A stretch of 5,065 nt of DNA from assembly GCA_021820825.1 (NCBI GenBank), contig JAKADD010000223.1, forward strand, positions 1 through 5,065, read 5' to 3'. A model generated the notes under the pieces. That model saw nothing but the letters and a program-made list of their open reading frames with translations, searched no databases and was not told the DNA's origin. A program made the translations under genes and the position numbers. Source of the stretch: Bacillota bacterium (GTDB taxonomy: Bacteria; Bacillota; Bacilli; Alicyclobacillales; SLC66). Of the stretch, positions 2 to 5,065 are shown piece by piece (within the stretch, counting starts at the first letter, position 1; each line of letters starts with the position of its first letter).

Positions 2-1009
2 CTGGTGGGAGAACAGGCGGCCAATATCGGGCGTAATGCGTGGCTGTCTGCTGGATTGCCGGAATCCGTGCCGGCGGTGACGATCGACCGTCAGTGCGGA
101 TCCAGTTTGCAAGCGCTTAACTTCGCGGCGCAGGGAATCATGGCGGGGGCGTATGATATCGCCATCGCCGCCGGCGTGGAATCGATGACGCGCGTGCCCA
201 TGCTCAGCACCATAGGAATTCACGGTACGCCCATGACGGAAGATTTACAGCGGCGGTATCAGCTGGATCGCTTTAACCGGACGTTTTTCGATCAGGCGCT
301 GGGGGCGGAGATGATCGCGAAACAGTGGGGATTCACCCGCGAGGATCTGGACCGTTTCGGGTTGCGCAGCCATCAGTTGGCGGCGGCGGCGCGCCAGGCA
401 GGACAGTTCCAGGCAGAGATTGTGCCTGTGCCCGTTCACACAGCGGGTGATAAGAAAGAGTTCTTTGAAGACGAGGGCATCCGAGCGGATACCACTCTGG
501 CAAAAATGGCGATGCTGGCGCCGGCGTTTCCCGATCTTGAAGTGATCACCGCCGGGAATGCCAGCCAGATTTCCGACGGTGCAAGCGCGGTTCTTGTGAC
601 TACGCCAGCGACGGCGAAACGGTTGGGGCTGCGTCCGCGGGCGCGGTTCGCGTCGTTCGCAGTAACCGGTGTCGATCCGGTGACCATGTTGACTGGCCCC
701 ATCCCGGCTACGCGCAAGGCGCTGGAGCGGGCGGGGCTTACCGTGGACGACATTGATCTGTTTGAAGTCAACGAAGCGTTTGCTTCTGTCGTCCTAGCCT
801 GGCAAAAGGAAATTGGCGCATCATGGGACAGAGTCAATGTCCACGGCGGCGCGATTGCGCTCGGTCATCCGCTTGGCGCCACTGGAACGCGGATCACGGC
901 GAGTCTGCTGAGCGCTCTTGAGCAACGCAAGGGGCGCTATGGACTGATGGCGATTTGCGAAGGGGGAGGCATGGCCAACGCGACCGTCATCGAGCGGCTT
1001 GGACAATAA
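2..1009 (+). CDS. Thiolase (acetyl-CoA C-acyltransferase), 5' end cut off by window
   Basis: Degradative thiolase, predicted to cleave 3-ketoacyl-CoA with CoA into acetyl-CoA and a shortened acyl-CoA in the cytoplasm, the last step of beta-oxidation or branched-chain amino acid breakdown. The frame is open to the left edge. The GTG at 5 is only the first possible codon, not the real start: the nucleophilic cysteine (DRQCGSS, TGC at 95-97) is the 31st residue from there, whereas in the family it sits near residue 90, so roughly 55-60 residues are missing. The other thiolase motifs are all present: NEAFA (770-784), the GHPLG histidine (CAT 866-868) and the C-terminal CEGGG cysteine (TGC 956-958). 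The Cys-His-Cys catalytic set is therefore complete. It ends 35 nt before the SDR gene, presumably in the same operon. The exact substrate (fatty acid, acetoacetyl or 2-methylacetoacetyl) cannot be read from the sequence. Confidence 0.95.
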   Translation: MVGEQAANIGRNAWLSAGLPESVPAVTIDRQCGSSLQALNFAAQGIMAGAYDIAIAAGVESMTRVPMLSTIGIHGTPMTEDLQRRYQLDRFNRTFFDQALGAEMIAKQWGFTREDLDRFGLRSHQLAAAARQAGQFQAEIVPVPVHTAGDKKEFFEDEGIRADTTLAKMAMLAPAFPDLEVITAGNASQISDGASAVLVTTPATAKRLGLRPRARFASFAVTGVDPVTMLTGPIPATRKALERAGLTVDDIDLFEVNEAFASVVLAWQKEIGASWDRVNVHGGAIALGHPLGATGTRITASLLSALEQRKGRYGLMAICEGGGMANATVIERLGQ

Positions 1010-1020
1010 TTGGACAATAA
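999..1020 (+). repeat. Perfect tandem 11-bp duplication at thiolase stop
   Basis: TTGGACAATAA occurs twice back to back (999-1009 and 1010-1020). The first copy encodes the last residues and the TAA stop of the thiolase, and the second lies in the short gap before the SDR ribosome binding site. It looks like a small slippage duplication. No function is evident. Confidence 0.85.
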
Positions 1021-1044
1021 ACGGAAAAACAGGAGGCCCAGACA

Positions 1045-1803
1045 ATGGATCTGCAGGGCAAAACATTCATCGTCACAGGCGGCGGATCGGGGTTGGGGGC
1101 GGGTACAGCCAGAGTGTTTGCGGAGGCTGGCGCGCATGTCGCTGTATTTGATGTGAACGAAGCGGCCGGCGAACGGGTGGCGCAGGAAACAGGCGGGCGT
1201 TTTGTGCGGACGGATGTCACCGACAGCGAGAGCGTGCAAAACGCGGTGGCTATGGTGGCTGAGTCTGGCCCGGTGCACGGGGCGGTCCACTGCGCGGGTG
1301 TCGGAATCGCGGTGAAGGTGCTGGGCAAAAATGGCCCTCATCCCCTGGATCAGTTCGCCCGCGTGATCGAGGTGAATGTAATCGGAACGTTCAATGTCAT
1401 TCGCTGGGTGGCGGCCGCTGTTCGCGACACGGAACCCGACGTAGGCGGAGAGCGGGGCGTTATCGTCACAACCGCTTCGGTGGCGGCCTTTGACGGTCAG
1501 ATTGGTCAGGCGGCGTATTCGGCTTCCAAAGGCGGCGTGGTGGGCACGACTTTACCCATTGCCCGAGAGTTGGCCCAATACGGCATCCGCGTTGTCAGTA
1601 TTGCGCCGGGTATCTTTGACACTCCGATGCTGGGGCAGTTGTCAGAAGAGGCGCGCCGTTCCCTCGGTGCGCAGGTTCCCTTCCCGCAGCGCCTGGGGCA
1701 GCCCAGGGAGTACGGGATGCTGGCCAGGCATATTGTGGAGAATTCGATGTTAAACGGGGAAGTCATCCGTCTTGACGGCGCCATTCGCATGGCGCCGCGT
1801 TGA
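1045..1803 (+). CDS. SDR 3-hydroxyacyl-CoA dehydrogenase, type 2 (HSD17B10-like)
   Basis: Short-chain dehydrogenase/reductase of 252 aa, a normal length for a classical SDR. It is predicted to oxidise 3-hydroxyacyl-CoA (or 2-methyl-3-hydroxybutyryl-CoA) to the 3-keto form with NAD+. Visible features are the Rossmann motif TGGGSGLG (residues 11-18), an acidic residue at the end of beta-2 (D36, favouring NAD over NADP), D57 in DVTD, a CAG motif at 83-85 in place of NAG, and the catalytic tetrad N111, S145, Y158, K162 (YSASK). The stretches around [26 protein letters not shown] and the C-terminal [13 protein letters not shown] closely match what I recall of human type-2 3-hydroxyacyl-CoA dehydrogenase, which is why I choose this subgroup over a generic SDR. 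The start is ATG 1045, with AGGAGG at 1031-1036 and an 8-nt spacer. It sits between a thiolase and an acyl-CoA dehydrogenase, which supports a beta-oxidation role. Substrate range is inferred. Confidence 0.92.
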
Positions 1804-1818: not shown

Positions 1819-2964
1819 TTGCGACACCTGTATCTTACAGAAGAGCATGATATTTTCCGGCGATCGGTGCGCCGATTTTTGGAAAAGGAAGCAATTCCCC
1901 ATTTTGATCAATGGGAACAGGAACGTTTGATTCCAAAAGCATTTTGGCTGAAGATGGGGAAACAGGGATTCTTGTGTCCGATGGTGTCTGCGCAATACGG
2001 AGGAGCTGATGCGGATTTCGGATTCTCCGTGGTGATCAATGAAGAACTTGAACGGGTTGGCTCAGGCATGTTGGGAATCGGACTGCACAACGATATTGTG
2101 ACGCCCTACCTGGTCAGTTATGGCACAGAGGAACAAAAGCGCCGCTGGCTGCCCGGTTGCGTGAGCGGCGAGCACATCACCGCGATCGCCATGACGGAAC
2201 CGGGAGCGGGTTCGGATCTGGCAGGCATCCGCACCACGGCGGCGCGCCACGGCGCTTCTTATGTCATCAACGGACAAAAAACGTTCATCACCAACGGCGT
2301 CCAGGCGGACCTGGTGGTGGTGGCGTGCAAAACGGATACGCAGGCGAGTCCAGGCCAGAATGCCCTCAGCCTGTTCGTGGTGGAGGAGGGAGCGCATGGA
2401 TTCACCCGCGGTCGCAAGTTGAACAAAATAGGCCAACACAGTCAGGACACCGCTGAACTGTTTTTCGAGGATTGCCTGGTTCCGGCGGACAGTTTGCTGG
2501 GTCAGGAAGGGGAAGGGTTTCGTTACCTGACGGAAAAACTTCAGCAGGAACGATTGCTGGTGGCCATCAGTGCGCAGATCGCGATGGAGGAGGCGCTGGG
2601 CGTCACCGCCGAGTATGTGAAGCAGCGTAAGGCCTTTGGCCAATCCATCAGCAAATTTCAGAACACCCGCTTCAAAATGGCGGAAATGGCCACTCAGATT
2701 AAAATCAGCCGCGTCTTCCTGGATCAGCTGATTGCCCGGCACATGGACGGAGAGAGTATTGTTGCAGAGGTTTCCATGGCCAAATGGTGGTCAACCGATA
2801 CGGCTCAGCAGGTGATCGCCGAATGTCTGCAACTGCATGGTGGTTACGGATACATGGAGGATTATGTGATTGCCCGCCGTTACCGGGACATCGCCGTGAT
2901 GTCCATCTACGCAGGCACAAATGAGATTATGAAAACCATCATCGCCAAGCACTTGGGTCTATAA
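1819..2964 (+). CDS. Acyl-CoA dehydrogenase (long-chain/isovaleryl-type active site)
   Basis: FAD-dependent acyl-CoA dehydrogenase, 381 aa (384 if GTG 1810 is used), the normal size for the family. It introduces the alpha-beta double bond into acyl-CoA and passes electrons to ETF. The N-terminal helical domain begins LTEEHDIFRRSVRRF. The middle domain carries the flavin/substrate signature AMTEPGAGSDLAG (about residues 124-136, TTG numbering). The C-terminal domain carries QLHGGYGYMEDY and ends in IYAGTNEIM. At the position of the medium/short-chain catalytic Glu (IYEGT) this protein has Ala (A365). The Glu in LQQERLL (E244) matches the base of long-chain and isovaleryl-CoA dehydrogenases. 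KLQQERLLVA and YVKQRKAFG also resemble mammalian LCAD. TTG 1819 is chosen on ribosome binding site spacing. It lies 15 nt after the SDR stop, so is surely co-transcribed, and is the last gene of the operon. Chain-length or branched specificity cannot be settled here. Confidence 0.94.
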   Translation: MRHLYLTEEHDIFRRSVRRFLEKEAIPHFDQWEQERLIPKAFWLKMGKQGFLCPMVSAQYGGADADFGFSVVINEELERVGSGMLGIGLHNDIVTPYLVSYGTEEQKRRWLPGCVSGEHITAIAMTEPGAGSDLAGIRTTAARHGASYVINGQKTFITNGVQADLVVVACKTDTQASPGQNALSLFVVEEGAHGFTRGRKLNKIGQHSQDTAELFFEDCLVPADSLLGQEGEGFRYLTEKLQQERLLVAISAQIAMEEALGVTAEYVKQRKAFGQSISKFQNTRFKMAEMATQIKISRVFLDQLIARHMDGESIVAEVSMAKWWSTDTAQQVIAECLQLHGGYGYMEDYVIARRYRDIAVMSIYAGTNEIMKTIIAKHLGL

Positions 2965-2965
2965 C

Positions 2966-3036
2966 GGAGAGACTGACAGGTCCGCCTTGTTCCGGATCAG
3001 TCCGACCTGACCGGGCGGCGGACCTGTCAGTCTCCT
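2966..3036 (+). terminator. Very strong hairpin after the acyl-CoA dehydrogenase, without a U-tract
   Basis: An 18-bp perfect inverted repeat (2969-2986 with 3017-3034, arms from GAGACTGACAGG to CCTGTCAGTCTC) begins 4 nt after the stop codon. Its 30-nt interior folds further: CCGG-A-TCAG (2992-3000) pairs with CTGACCGG (3007-3014) apart from one bulged A, around a 6-nt loop. The position suggests an operon terminator or an mRNA 3'-end barrier. Neither strand has a run of T after the stem, so it is not a textbook intrinsic terminator. It could be a dispersed palindromic repeat, but only one copy is in view. Confidence 0.5.
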
Positions 3037-3057
3037 GATGATCCCACGCAATATAGT

Positions 3058-3072
3058 GTCATATAATATGAC
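3058..3072. promoter_or_regulatory. AT-rich palindrome containing a -10-like TATAAT (operator candidate)
   Basis: GTCATATAATATGAC is a perfect inverted repeat with 7-bp arms around a central A. It includes TATAAT at 3062-3067, but no convincing -35 lies 16-18 nt upstream (TGATCC or similar). It lies 80-90 nt upstream of the clear mtlD leader promoter. It may be a repressor site, a weak promoter, or chance in AT-rich DNA. The rest of 3037-3150 shows only a short CTTGT-CGT-ACAAG repeat (3104-3116). Confidence 0.3.
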
Positions 3073-3150
3073 GCAATGTGTGATATATGAACGACCGATA
3101 ACGCTTGTCGTACAAGTTTCACTTCTTCGCGTTCGGCTTGGGGAGTAAAC

Positions 3151-3181
3151 TTGACATACGAACACTTTTTAGTGCTATAAT
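3151..3181 (+). promoter_or_regulatory. SigA-type promoter for the c-di-AMP riboswitch/mtlD transcript
   Basis: A consensus -35 TTGACA (3151-3156) and a consensus -10 TATAAT (3176-3181) are separated by 19 nt. The -10 is preceded by TGC, giving an extended -10 that can offset the long spacer. Transcription would start near 3188, about 70 nt before the riboswitch aptamer. Between the boxes is a small inverted repeat, CACT-TTTT-AGTG (3163-3174), which could be an operator. Confidence 0.8.
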
Positions 3182-3259
3182 ATATACACAGCTAAGGAAA
3201 TCAACGTAAAAACAAGCCTTCTTCAACCACAAGACAGTCGAAGAACGGGCCTAATTTCT

Positions 3260-3415
3260 GATCCGGTAGTGCGGAACGAAAACGGGGGAACCACATTTTG
3301 GGGTGAATTATCAATTTGCGCCCGCAAGTTGATATAGGCATCGTCGTTACTTTGGATGACGCCGAATCCGTCAGCTAACCTCGTAGGCGAATACTGATGA
3401 TTGTTCGCTATCCTC
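3260..3415 (+). promoter_or_regulatory. c-di-AMP riboswitch aptamer (ydaO/yuaA leader)
   Basis: Recognised from the two conserved blocks of the ydaO-yuaA class: GGGGGAACCA followed by GGGGTGAAT (3284-3308), and GCCGAATCCGTCAGCTAACC followed by TCGTAGGCG (3361-3389). Between them is an 11-bp variable hairpin (3309-3319 with 3324-3334, loop GCCC, one T-G pair), then a partly paired arm (GGCATCGTC 3338-3346 with GGATGACGCC 3354-3363). A closing stem can be drawn between GGTAGTG (3265-3271) and CGCTATCC (3407-3414), with one bulge. In known members, c-di-AMP binding favours termination and lowers expression of potassium-transport, osmolyte and cell-wall genes. Here the aptamer precedes an intrinsic terminator and mtlD on the same strand. 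Aptamer identity is firm; the exact ends are approximate. Confidence 0.92.
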
Positions 3416-3525
3416 CTGATACAGTGCATCTGGATGCGCTGCCCATTGGATTCCGTTCAAACAGACACCGCAGCAGTGAATGTGATGTAAGTGCTGAGTC
3501 GGCAGTATAAACGGCACAGCAAAGC
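3416..3525 (+). other. Leader linker between aptamer and terminator, with hairpins
   Basis: About 110 nt of transcribed leader without an open reading frame. CAGTGCAT (3422-3429) and ATGCGCTG (3434-3441) form an 8-bp hairpin with a CTGG loop and one T-G pair. Further on, TGCTG (3492-3496) can pair with CAGCA at 3471-3475 or with CAGCA at 3517-3521, two mutually exclusive folds, the second ending just before the terminator. This may be the switching part of the expression platform. That is inference from hand pairing. Confidence 0.4.
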
Positions 3526-3550
3526 AACACCGTCTTTGACGGGGTTTTTT
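3526..3550 (+). terminator. Intrinsic terminator in the mtlD leader (riboswitch output)
   Basis: CCGTC (3530-3534), loop TTT and GACGG (3538-3542), extended past an A-G mismatch by AAC (3526-3528) with GTT (3544-3546), followed by six T (3545-3550). This is a standard Rho-independent terminator. It lies between the c-di-AMP aptamer and mtlD, so it is the likely point at which the riboswitch stops or allows transcription. Confidence 0.85.
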
Positions 3551-3628
3551 CTTTCATACAAAGGTCTCAAGATTGGCCTTGCCTCAAGTTCGGAATCGTC
3601 ATAGCAACATGAAAGGGAGTCTTCGCTT

Positions 3629-4798
3629 GTGAAAGCCGTTCATTTCGGTGCGGGTAACATCGGTCGGGGTTTTATCGGGATGTTGTTGTCCCAAGCGGGC
3701 TATGAGATCCGCTTTATCGTGCGCAATTCGGAAAAGATATCGCTGCTTCAGCAACGGCGTCATTACACTGTGACGCTGGCCAACGACGCGGCTGACTCTA
3801 TCACTGTAAGAAACGTGACCGGTATAAGTGTGAAAAATCGGGAGGCGGTGATACGAGCCGTTGCCGAGGCAGACCTGGTGACAACCGCGGTTGGCGTCAA
3901 CGCCCTCAAAAGCATTGCAGAAGTGATCGCGAAAGGCATCGAGAGGCGTATGATACAAGACCCGAAGTCATTGAACGTTATTGCGTGTGAAAATGCCATT
4001 CGAGCCAGTTCCAGACTCAAGACATTCGTTTATCCACATATTGATAGTGAATTGCGCGCGGAAGTGAATCAATACATCGGTTTCCCAAACTCTGTTGTCG
4101 ATCGGATTGTTCCTGTGCAGCAATACAAAGACCCGTTGATGGTCAAAGTGGAACCTTTTTATGAATGGATTATCGATCGCTCTGACTTGCGTGAAACGAT
4201 TCCGGAAATTGCCGGAGTCCGTTACGTGGATTCGCTTGATCCGTATATCGAGCGCAAGATCTTCACGGTCAACACCGGTCACTGTAGTGCGGCCTACCTG
4301 GGTTATATTGAGGGCTGTCAAACCATCCAGGAAGTCATGAAAAACCAGCGGATGAGGGAAAAGATTCGACTTATTTTGGAAGAAACAGGGGAGCTGCTCA
4401 TTAAGAAATACCATTTTGACAGAGAGCAGCACAGGGGTTATATTCGGCGAACTTTGCAACGCTTTTCAAATCCACACTTGATCGACAAAATCGTACGGGT
4501 TGGACGATCTCCCATTCGCAAACTTTCTGCCGACGAGCGGCTGGTTGGACCTGCAATGCAAGCTTATGAAAACGGGTTGGACACTCCCAATCTAACGTCA
4601 GCCTTGGCGGCGGCGTTCATGTTTGATTACGACAAAGACGACCAGGCCATGACACTGCAGACCACCATCAAGCAAAACGGGGTGCAGCCAACCATCACGA
4701 AATACACGGGCATCCCGAATGAACATCCCATTTATCAAAGTATCTTGTCAAATTATCAACATTTTACGAGCTCTCAGGCGTATTCAAAACAGTCCTAA
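3629..4798 (+). CDS. mtlD: Mannitol-1-phosphate 5-dehydrogenase
   Basis: Cytoplasmic enzyme interconverting mannitol 1-phosphate and fructose 6-phosphate with NAD(H). At 389 aa it is full length. The N-terminal Rossmann motif is GAGNIGRG (residues 7-14), ACEN is at 119-122, and FPNSVVDRIVP (152-162) is typical of the polyol-specific long-chain dehydrogenases. KIFTVNTGH supplies K210, N215 and H218, with the K-x4-N-x2-H spacing of that family's catalytic residues; N154 probably joins them. It starts at GTG 3629, with AAAGGGAG (3612-3619) and a 9-nt spacer; the family N-terminus MKAVHFGAGNIGRGF confirms this start. It is a lone gene: no mtlA, mtlF or mtlR is visible. It lies behind a promoter, a c-di-AMP riboswitch and a terminator, suggesting expression when c-di-AMP is low. 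Its direction in vivo (mannitol synthesis as osmolyte, or catabolism) is open. Base composition looks less GC-rich than the upstream operon. Confidence 0.95.
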   Translation: MKAVHFGAGNIGRGFIGMLLSQAGYEIRFIVRNSEKISLLQQRRHYTVTLANDAADSITVRNVTGISVKNREAVIRAVAEADLVTTAVGVNALKSIAEVIAKGIERRMIQDPKSLNVIACENAIRASSRLKTFVYPHIDSELRAEVNQYIGFPNSVVDRIVPVQQYKDPLMVKVEPFYEWIIDRSDLRETIPEIAGVRYVDSLDPYIERKIFTVNTGHCSAAYLGYIEGCQTIQEVMKNQRMREKIRLILEETGELLIKKYHFDREQHRGYIRRTLQRFSNPHLIDKIVRVGRSPIRKLSADERLVGPAMQAYENGLDTPNLTSALAAAFMFDYDKDDQAMTLQTTIKQNGVQPTITKYTGIPNEHPIYQSILSNYQHFTSSQAYSKQS

Positions 4799-4802
4799 CC
4801 CA

Positions 4803-4831
4803 TTGACAACGGCTGCGAATGATGATACAGT
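4803..4831 (+). promoter_or_regulatory. SigA-type promoter for the M-box transcript
   Basis: A perfect -35 TTGACA (4803-4808), a 17-nt spacer and -10 TACAGT (4826-4831, 4 of 6 matches to TATAAT), preceded by TGA (an extended -10 TGn). The predicted start is near 4838, about 40 nt before the M-box. It begins only 4 nt after the mtlD stop codon. No terminator separates mtlD from it. Confidence 0.75.
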
Positions 4832-4878
4832 GCATTTAGGAAAAAGGCATTTTGAGTTTCCCGTTAATTGCATATGAC

Positions 4879-5039
4879 CAATCCTCGTTAGGCGAGGCTT
4901 CTATACGAATACATGCCACTGCCCGGAAACGTCGAAAGACGCCAATGGGTTGAACAGGTACTGCCGGCTTAAGGCTTTACTTAATGTGGCTGAGCATCGC
5001 TCAAAGTCGTATAGTGCCAAAGCTCAACCAGGGGGATTG
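4879..5039 (+). promoter_or_regulatory. M-box magnesium riboswitch (ykoK leader)
   Basis: An essentially complete M-box aptamer. The conserved signatures are TCGTTAGGCGAGGCTTC (4885-4901), CTGCCC (4920-4924 region), the hairpin CGTC-GAAA-GACG with a GNRA loop (4930-4941), GCCAATGGGT (4941-4950) with AACAG (4953-4957), and GTGCCAAAGCTCAAC (5014-5028). CTATACGA (4901-4908) pairs perfectly with TCGTATAG (5007-5014). GAGGCTT (4894-4900) pairs with AAGCTC (5020-5025) apart from one bulged base. The closing stem is CAATCC (4879-4884) with GGATTG (5034-5039). This class folds on binding Mg2+ and turns down Mg2+ transporter genes (mgtE, corA, P-type ATPases). The regulated gene and most of the expression platform lie beyond the right edge. 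Confidence 0.93.
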
Positions 5040-5065
5040 TAAAAGCTGTGCACCTTGTTTTCGGT

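Follow-up and report, generated by a model that had tools for sequence, protein, structure and literature searches.

A c-di-AMP riboswitch predicted to control a mannitol-1-phosphate 5-dehydrogenase gene in a lineage of Bacillota

Described systems and the mtlD locus

The second messenger c-di-AMP is best known for the control of potassium and osmolyte transport, and the targets of its riboswitch class are reportedly treated in primary papers by Block in 2010 and Nelson in 2013. Excerpts of PMC9960051 describe c-di-AMP riboswitches as OFF switches that are often found ahead of transporter genes, including those for osmoprotectant transporters. In Dehalobacter, a c-di-AMP riboswitch in tandem with a Na+ riboswitch lies before ablA, a gene for an osmolyte precursor, and controls it (PMC9337991, in part). 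Under salt, Acinetobacter baumannii uses a fused MtlD to produce the compatible solute mannitol (PMC6291793, in part). The mtl genes of Staphylococcus aureus lie within the cdaA region, where the riboswitch discussed, in the portion of PMC8537086 consulted, is glmS. In the literature searched, mostly as listed entries together with passages of PMC4448311, PMC4342826 and PMC8537086, no pairing of the RF00379 class with mannitol or mtlD was met, and an earlier report is possible.

The locus considered here lies in a 5,065-nt stretch of Bacillota DNA (the window), and the best reading of it is a known riboswitch class with a target, mannitol synthesis, that was not met in that literature. It resembles described c-di-AMP (ydaO/yuaA) riboswitches of family RF00379 in its full-length match, in having a promoter before and a terminator after, and in its predicted OFF direction, but differs in that the gene controlled would be mtlD. 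As at Dehalobacter ablA, a c-di-AMP riboswitch would act on a gene for synthesis of an osmolyte precursor, whereas no Na+ riboswitch was reported by the Rfam search of the window and the product would be mannitol. With the fused MtlD (NF046057) the comparison is one of a HAD phosphatase and a mannitol-1-phosphate dehydrogenase acting as one working unit: HAD proteins of relatives match its first part and the window MtlD its later part, and the phosphatase-dehydrogenase order of the A. baumannii fusion is the order of the HAD and mtlD genes. The differences are that the genes are separate in two related loci (L091 and L093, below), that the window has no adjacent phosphatase, and that the fused gene has its own salt-responsive promoter rather than the riboswitch of L091, L093 and the window. 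The mannitol PTS operon mtlA-mtlR-mtlF-mtlD (as in L030) encodes a homologous MtlD, but the window mtlD has no PTS genes beside it and its product falls elsewhere in the MtlD tree.

In order along its plus strand, the window carries a thiolase gene (end only), an SDR gene, an acyl-CoA dehydrogenase gene, a promoter, the c-di-AMP riboswitch, a terminator, mtlD, a promoter-like site and an M-box. The original prediction had placed promoter, ydaO-type aptamer, terminator and mtlD consecutively on one strand, and this order was confirmed by the sequence, the RF00379 match and the NF002652 match. The Sigma-70-type promoter (3151..3181, plus strand) comprises TTGACA (3151-3156), a 19-nt spacer and an extended -10 TATAAT (3176-3181) with TG one base ahead of the -10. 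It was recognized by sequence reading and by alignment with the L091 leader, in which both hexamer regions are conserved, and is missing from our consensus-scan list because that scan was limited to spacers of 16-18 nt. The same scan, over 2900-5065, listed only 4416 and 4803 as plus-strand promoter-like sites and none between 3550 and 3629, in agreement with the earlier claim that no promoter separates the terminator from mtlD. The intrinsic terminator (3526..3550, plus strand; core stem 3530-3534/3538-3542, T run 3545-3550) was found by sequence, scan and folding. Since the region 2900-5065 holds six terminator-like sites on both strands, compared with a mean of 2.3 in shuffles, the terminator match by itself is little evidence.

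The gene mtlD (3629..4798, plus strand; GTG start) encodes a 389-aa mannitol-1-phosphate 5-dehydrogenase, which scores 462.6 bits against NF002652 (curated NCBIfam cut-off, 356), carries PF01232 and PF08125, and whose residues 1-372 align with 3h2z, a mannitol-1-phosphate 5-dehydrogenase of solved structure. A protein 95% identical to the window MtlD (P0001) is encoded on a 58-kb metagenome contig. The proposal that mtlD diverts fructose 6-phosphate to mannitol held as regards the identity of MtlD, but MtlD alone yields mannitol 1-phosphate, so that a phosphatase is required and none adjoins: we found no HAD match in the 5-kb window and no HAD gene next to mtlD. No mannitol PTS gene (mtlA, mtlF or mtlR) was found beside mtlD across the window either.

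Several other elements were observed in the window. An M-box (magnesium) riboswitch, RF00380, absent from the original prediction, lies at 4877-5041 on the plus strand (156.6 bits), preceded by a promoter-like site at 4803-4831 and with its gene beyond the window end; mtlD is thus flanked by two riboswitches. A perfect 18-bp inverted repeat with a 30-nt loop (2969-3034), 3′ of the acyl-CoA dehydrogenase gene, is perhaps a terminator or a repeat element. An exact 13-nt repeat, TGATACAGTGCAT, occurs at 3417-3429 in the c-di-AMP leader and at 4823-4835 at the promoter-like site ahead of the M-box; we found no role for it, and its exact form is not kept in L091.

Aptamer and predicted expression platform

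A covariance-model search, proposed with the original prediction, matched RF00379 to positions 3238..3404 of the plus strand with 71.6 bits, above the gathering score of 38 (E 9.7e-16, model positions 1-134 of 134). The conserved positions of the aptamer core are intact in the alignment. An elongated hairpin (3310-3333) is closed by GCGCCCGC. This hairpin was present in all three mtlD-linked aptamers and in none of the 22 others that could be placed in related genomes; the motif missed four further loci, near-copies occur among the 22, and L161 comes close. Three of its base pairs are changed on both sides between the window and L091, a comparison of two sequences only. A second aptamer between the first and the terminator was considered and rejected: a relaxed Rfam search across 3390-3640 yielded just one match, at chance level (15.2 bits against a gathering score of 114), and folding accounts for that stretch as an expression platform.

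ViennaRNA predicts three structures in and around that stretch, all on the plus strand. A ligand-free hairpin (3386..3409) would pair the P1 3′ strand (3386-3393) with 3402-3409, and this pairing is kept in L091. An anti-antiterminator stem-loop (3398..3463), absent from the original prediction, has parts kept in L091. An antiterminator (3449..3546) would pair 3449-3463 with 3535-3546; the latter segment is not conserved in L091. We propose that the leader (about 3188-3560) acts on mtlD as a c-di-AMP OFF riboswitch working by transcription termination. When c-di-AMP is high, P1 would close and the 3398-3463 stem-loop would form and sequester the 5′ strand of the antiterminator, and the terminator (3526-3550) would then end transcription. 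At low c-di-AMP, the P1 3′ strand would pair with 3402-3409, the antiterminator would form and mtlD would be transcribed.

Folding from position 3385, with the P1 3′ strand free, gave pairing probabilities of 0.064 for the terminator and about 0.9 for the antiterminator, compared with 0.787 and 0.04 from position 3390, without that strand; the terminator difference (0.064 vs. 0.787) was matched by 7 of 500 dinucleotide shuffles of approximately 3391-3524. For the full leader, the terminator reached 0.50 when folded freely, 0.67 with P1 forced and 0.64 with 3372-3389 blocked, and the antiterminator 0.44, 0.09 and 0.27, respectively. An unconstrained start at 3238 already gave 0.81 for the terminator, a start at 3372 gave a third fold with 0.07 for terminator and antiterminator alike, and starts at 3405 and 3408 favoured the antiterminator again. 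In these models the leader can work as an OFF switch, with an effect size that varies with the treatment of the aptamer. Its overall stability is ordinary (z -0.66 for the whole leader and 0.03 for 3405-3560), so stability alone is no evidence. The L091 leader retains the two upstream hairpins, and a scan found no terminator in it. In L093, a 9-bp hairpin followed by CAACUUUUU comes right after the aptamer and is missing from the terminator scan list because the scan was limited to short loops.

Riboswitches and mtlD loci in related genomes

A c-di-AMP cyclase domain was found in all six relatives, and copies of RF00379 numbered nine in G044, seven each in G056 and G043, six in G006 and four in G001. 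Scores in relatives reach 108.2 bits, and the window copy, with 71.6 bits, sits toward the lower end of that range. Taking the longest ORF 3′ of the aptamer as the downstream protein in 26 loci, we scanned 10 of these proteins. Five fit known targets, namely KdpA (L157), an ABC ATPase with CBS domains (L159), NlpC/P60 proteins (L163 and L087) and a LysM-transglycosylase (L164). The other five, which are not obvious potassium, osmolyte or cell-wall proteins, were creatininase-like, radical-SAM-like (below the cut-off), an MFS transporter, sulfatase-like and a glycosyltransferase.

Our first contig scan confirmed 572 mtlD loci and retained 80, of which the top one had 62% identity. A search of 59 genomes from the order of G001 with MtlD yielded 28 matches, of which those in G044 (68%), G001 (62%) and G056 (56%) were close, one in G043 was partial (52% over residues 152-383) and the remaining 24 had 35-41% identity. 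Two of these genomes carry the riboswitch, a HAD gene and mtlD as a same-strand set. In L091 (G044) they occupy 294-492, 806-1501 and 1501-2658, all on the plus strand; in L093 (G056) they occupy 2328-2478, 1473-2135 and 246-1463, all on the minus strand. L001 (G001), a close relative, has HAD-mtlD without RF00379, and L097 (G043) begins inside its HAD gene. The leaders of the window and L091 align from the -35 element and extended -10 through the aptamer to about 65 nt beyond it, excluding the terminator region; promoter and leader are thus conserved though the MtlDs are only 68% identical. The shared leader, the GCGCCCGC hairpin and its compensated pairs suggest that the riboswitch-mtlD link arose once. 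The window acyl-CoA dehydrogenase is closest to that of G001 (68%, with matches in one of seven genomes), which means that the window genome is not simply sister to G044 in every gene.

Of 23 HAD-linked loci scanned with Rfam, 2 had a same-strand RF00379 upstream; in this set L092 repeats L001 and was not counted, L097 is cut so that 22 are informative, and the MtlDs of L064 and L140 are identical. Inspection of orthologous mtlD loci for the leader, a check proposed with the original prediction, thus gave L091 and L093 but not L001, and we rejected the riboswitch as a general regulator of HAD-mtlD. None was detected at the 24 PTS-linked loci scanned, at L080, or at the eight scanned HAD loci without an adjoining mtlD. 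A motif scan of the 80 mtlD contig loci, a weaker tool than the Rfam model, gave nothing convincing upstream of mtlD; the same scan recovered the aptamers of L091, L093 and L125. The L125 copy (910-1049, minus strand; 82.7 bits) is on the strand opposite to its HAD-mtlD unit and apparently serves a divergent gene.

Of 20 HAD-linked upstream regions examined, 14 (L003, L004, L006, L008, L010, L011, L012, L016, L019, L022, L025, L026, L035 and L054) have a conserved block of TTGAC, 17 nt and TACGGT ahead of the HAD gene, often trailed by TTTTGTTA or a similar sequence. At loci with this promoter-like block, the HAD-mtlD unit seems to be regulated differently, so it came under different controls in evolution.

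Among 114 mtlD loci, 38 had a HAD gene directly upstream (six of which had to carry one, because they were fetched with a HAD protein as query), 74 had mtlA or mtlF, none had both, and two, the window and L080, had neither; the first 80 loci included 29 HAD-linked and 50 PTS-linked. Loci fetched by genome search have flanks of only about 1.5 kb. In an MtlD tree of 113 sequences (109 different, L097 excluded), built by a quick method and with some long branches, the 37 HAD-linked rows fell on one side of a single branch (SH-aLRT 99). The window MtlD was placed among them, beside that of L091 (SH-aLRT 94) and apart from the PTS-linked MtlDs. This grouping and the 5 kb without PTS genes agree with the earlier view that the absence of adjacent mannitol PTS genes fits a biosynthetic role. 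A full mannitol PTS operon elsewhere in the genome, together with an mtlD unresponsive to salt or c-di-AMP, had been named as evidence against that view; sought in relatives, MtlA was found in none of four (G044, G056, G001 and G004; completeness unstated), while the control genome G423 was positive.

A HAD gene adjoining mtlD is not the rule: of 30 HAD loci fetched, mtlD was inside the fetched flank in 20 and not in 10. L121 (G006) has a HAD gene at about 1507-2154 on the minus strand, 63% identical to the L091 HAD at the protein level, with no mtlD in the fetched flank and no RF00379 at the locus. Hexitol phosphatase HxpB was the top-scoring model for the L001 and L060 HAD proteins, though below its cut-off (123 and 118.6 vs. 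191 bits), and both proteins also match the bifunctional MtlD model in its phosphatase portion. Residues 12-223 of the L001 protein match solved MtlD dehydrogenase/phosphatase chains, and it scores higher with CbbY, TM_1254 and a putative beta-phosphoglucomutase than with those chains.

Alternative explanations and biological meaning

We consider it likely that a transcription-terminating c-di-AMP OFF riboswitch governs mtlD for the production of mannitol as a compatible solute. The riboswitch could instead control an MtlD that serves redox balance, carbon storage or the use of mannitol 1-phosphate from elsewhere, which we regard as unlikely. The window mtlD does lack an adjoining phosphatase gene, and 5 of 10 proteins downstream of RF00379 are not obvious potassium, osmolyte or cell-wall proteins, but the window MtlD groups with HAD-linked MtlDs, and the fused phosphatase-dehydrogenase MtlD of A. 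baumannii makes mannitol as a compatible solute (PMC6291793, excerpts). The RNA might also act on mtlD through translation, through transcript stability or as an ON switch, as the lack of a terminator by scan in L091 and the shifting of the fold with the start point may indicate. Such a mode of action seems rather improbable given that the Bacillus subtilis prototype is OFF by termination (PMC9960051, excerpts), that the window has a terminator and L093 its 9-bp hairpin and CAACUUUUU, and that the antiterminator drops from 0.44 to 0.09 once P1 is forced. That the match reflects chance or a decayed aptamer, with mtlD expressed independently of c-di-AMP, we find very hard to credit: its 71.6 bits are low in the range of relatives (best 108.2) and L001 has HAD-mtlD without RF00379, but the match extends across the full model at E 9.7e-16 with an intact core, and promoter and leader are kept in L091, with compensated pairs, despite 68% MtlD identity.

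With the proposed OFF riboswitch, a putative fall of c-di-AMP under stress would raise mtlD expression, and MtlD would convert fructose 6-phosphate to mannitol 1-phosphate, towards mannitol that would accumulate and may be osmoprotective. L091 and L093 probably show the ancestral arrangement of riboswitch, HAD phosphatase and mtlD. In the window lineage the phosphatase gene would no longer be beside mtlD, and its role would have to be met elsewhere. More broadly, it is somewhat probable that in a lineage of Bacillota a c-di-AMP riboswitch acts on a dedicated mannitol-synthesis unit, comprising a HAD mannitol-1-phosphatase and mannitol-1-phosphate dehydrogenase, and that the same two-gene unit in Paenibacillus is under a different conserved promoter. 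A riboswitch governing such a unit would mean that c-di-AMP controls the synthesis of a polyol compatible solute besides the uptake of potassium and osmolytes. If the conserved link to mannitol synthesis is true, c-di-AMP would directly control the making of a carbon-based osmolyte, these bacteria would be predicted to use mannitol as a compatible solute, and a function would be suggested for the HAD phosphatase encoded beside mtlD in many Paenibacillus genomes and in some other Bacillota.
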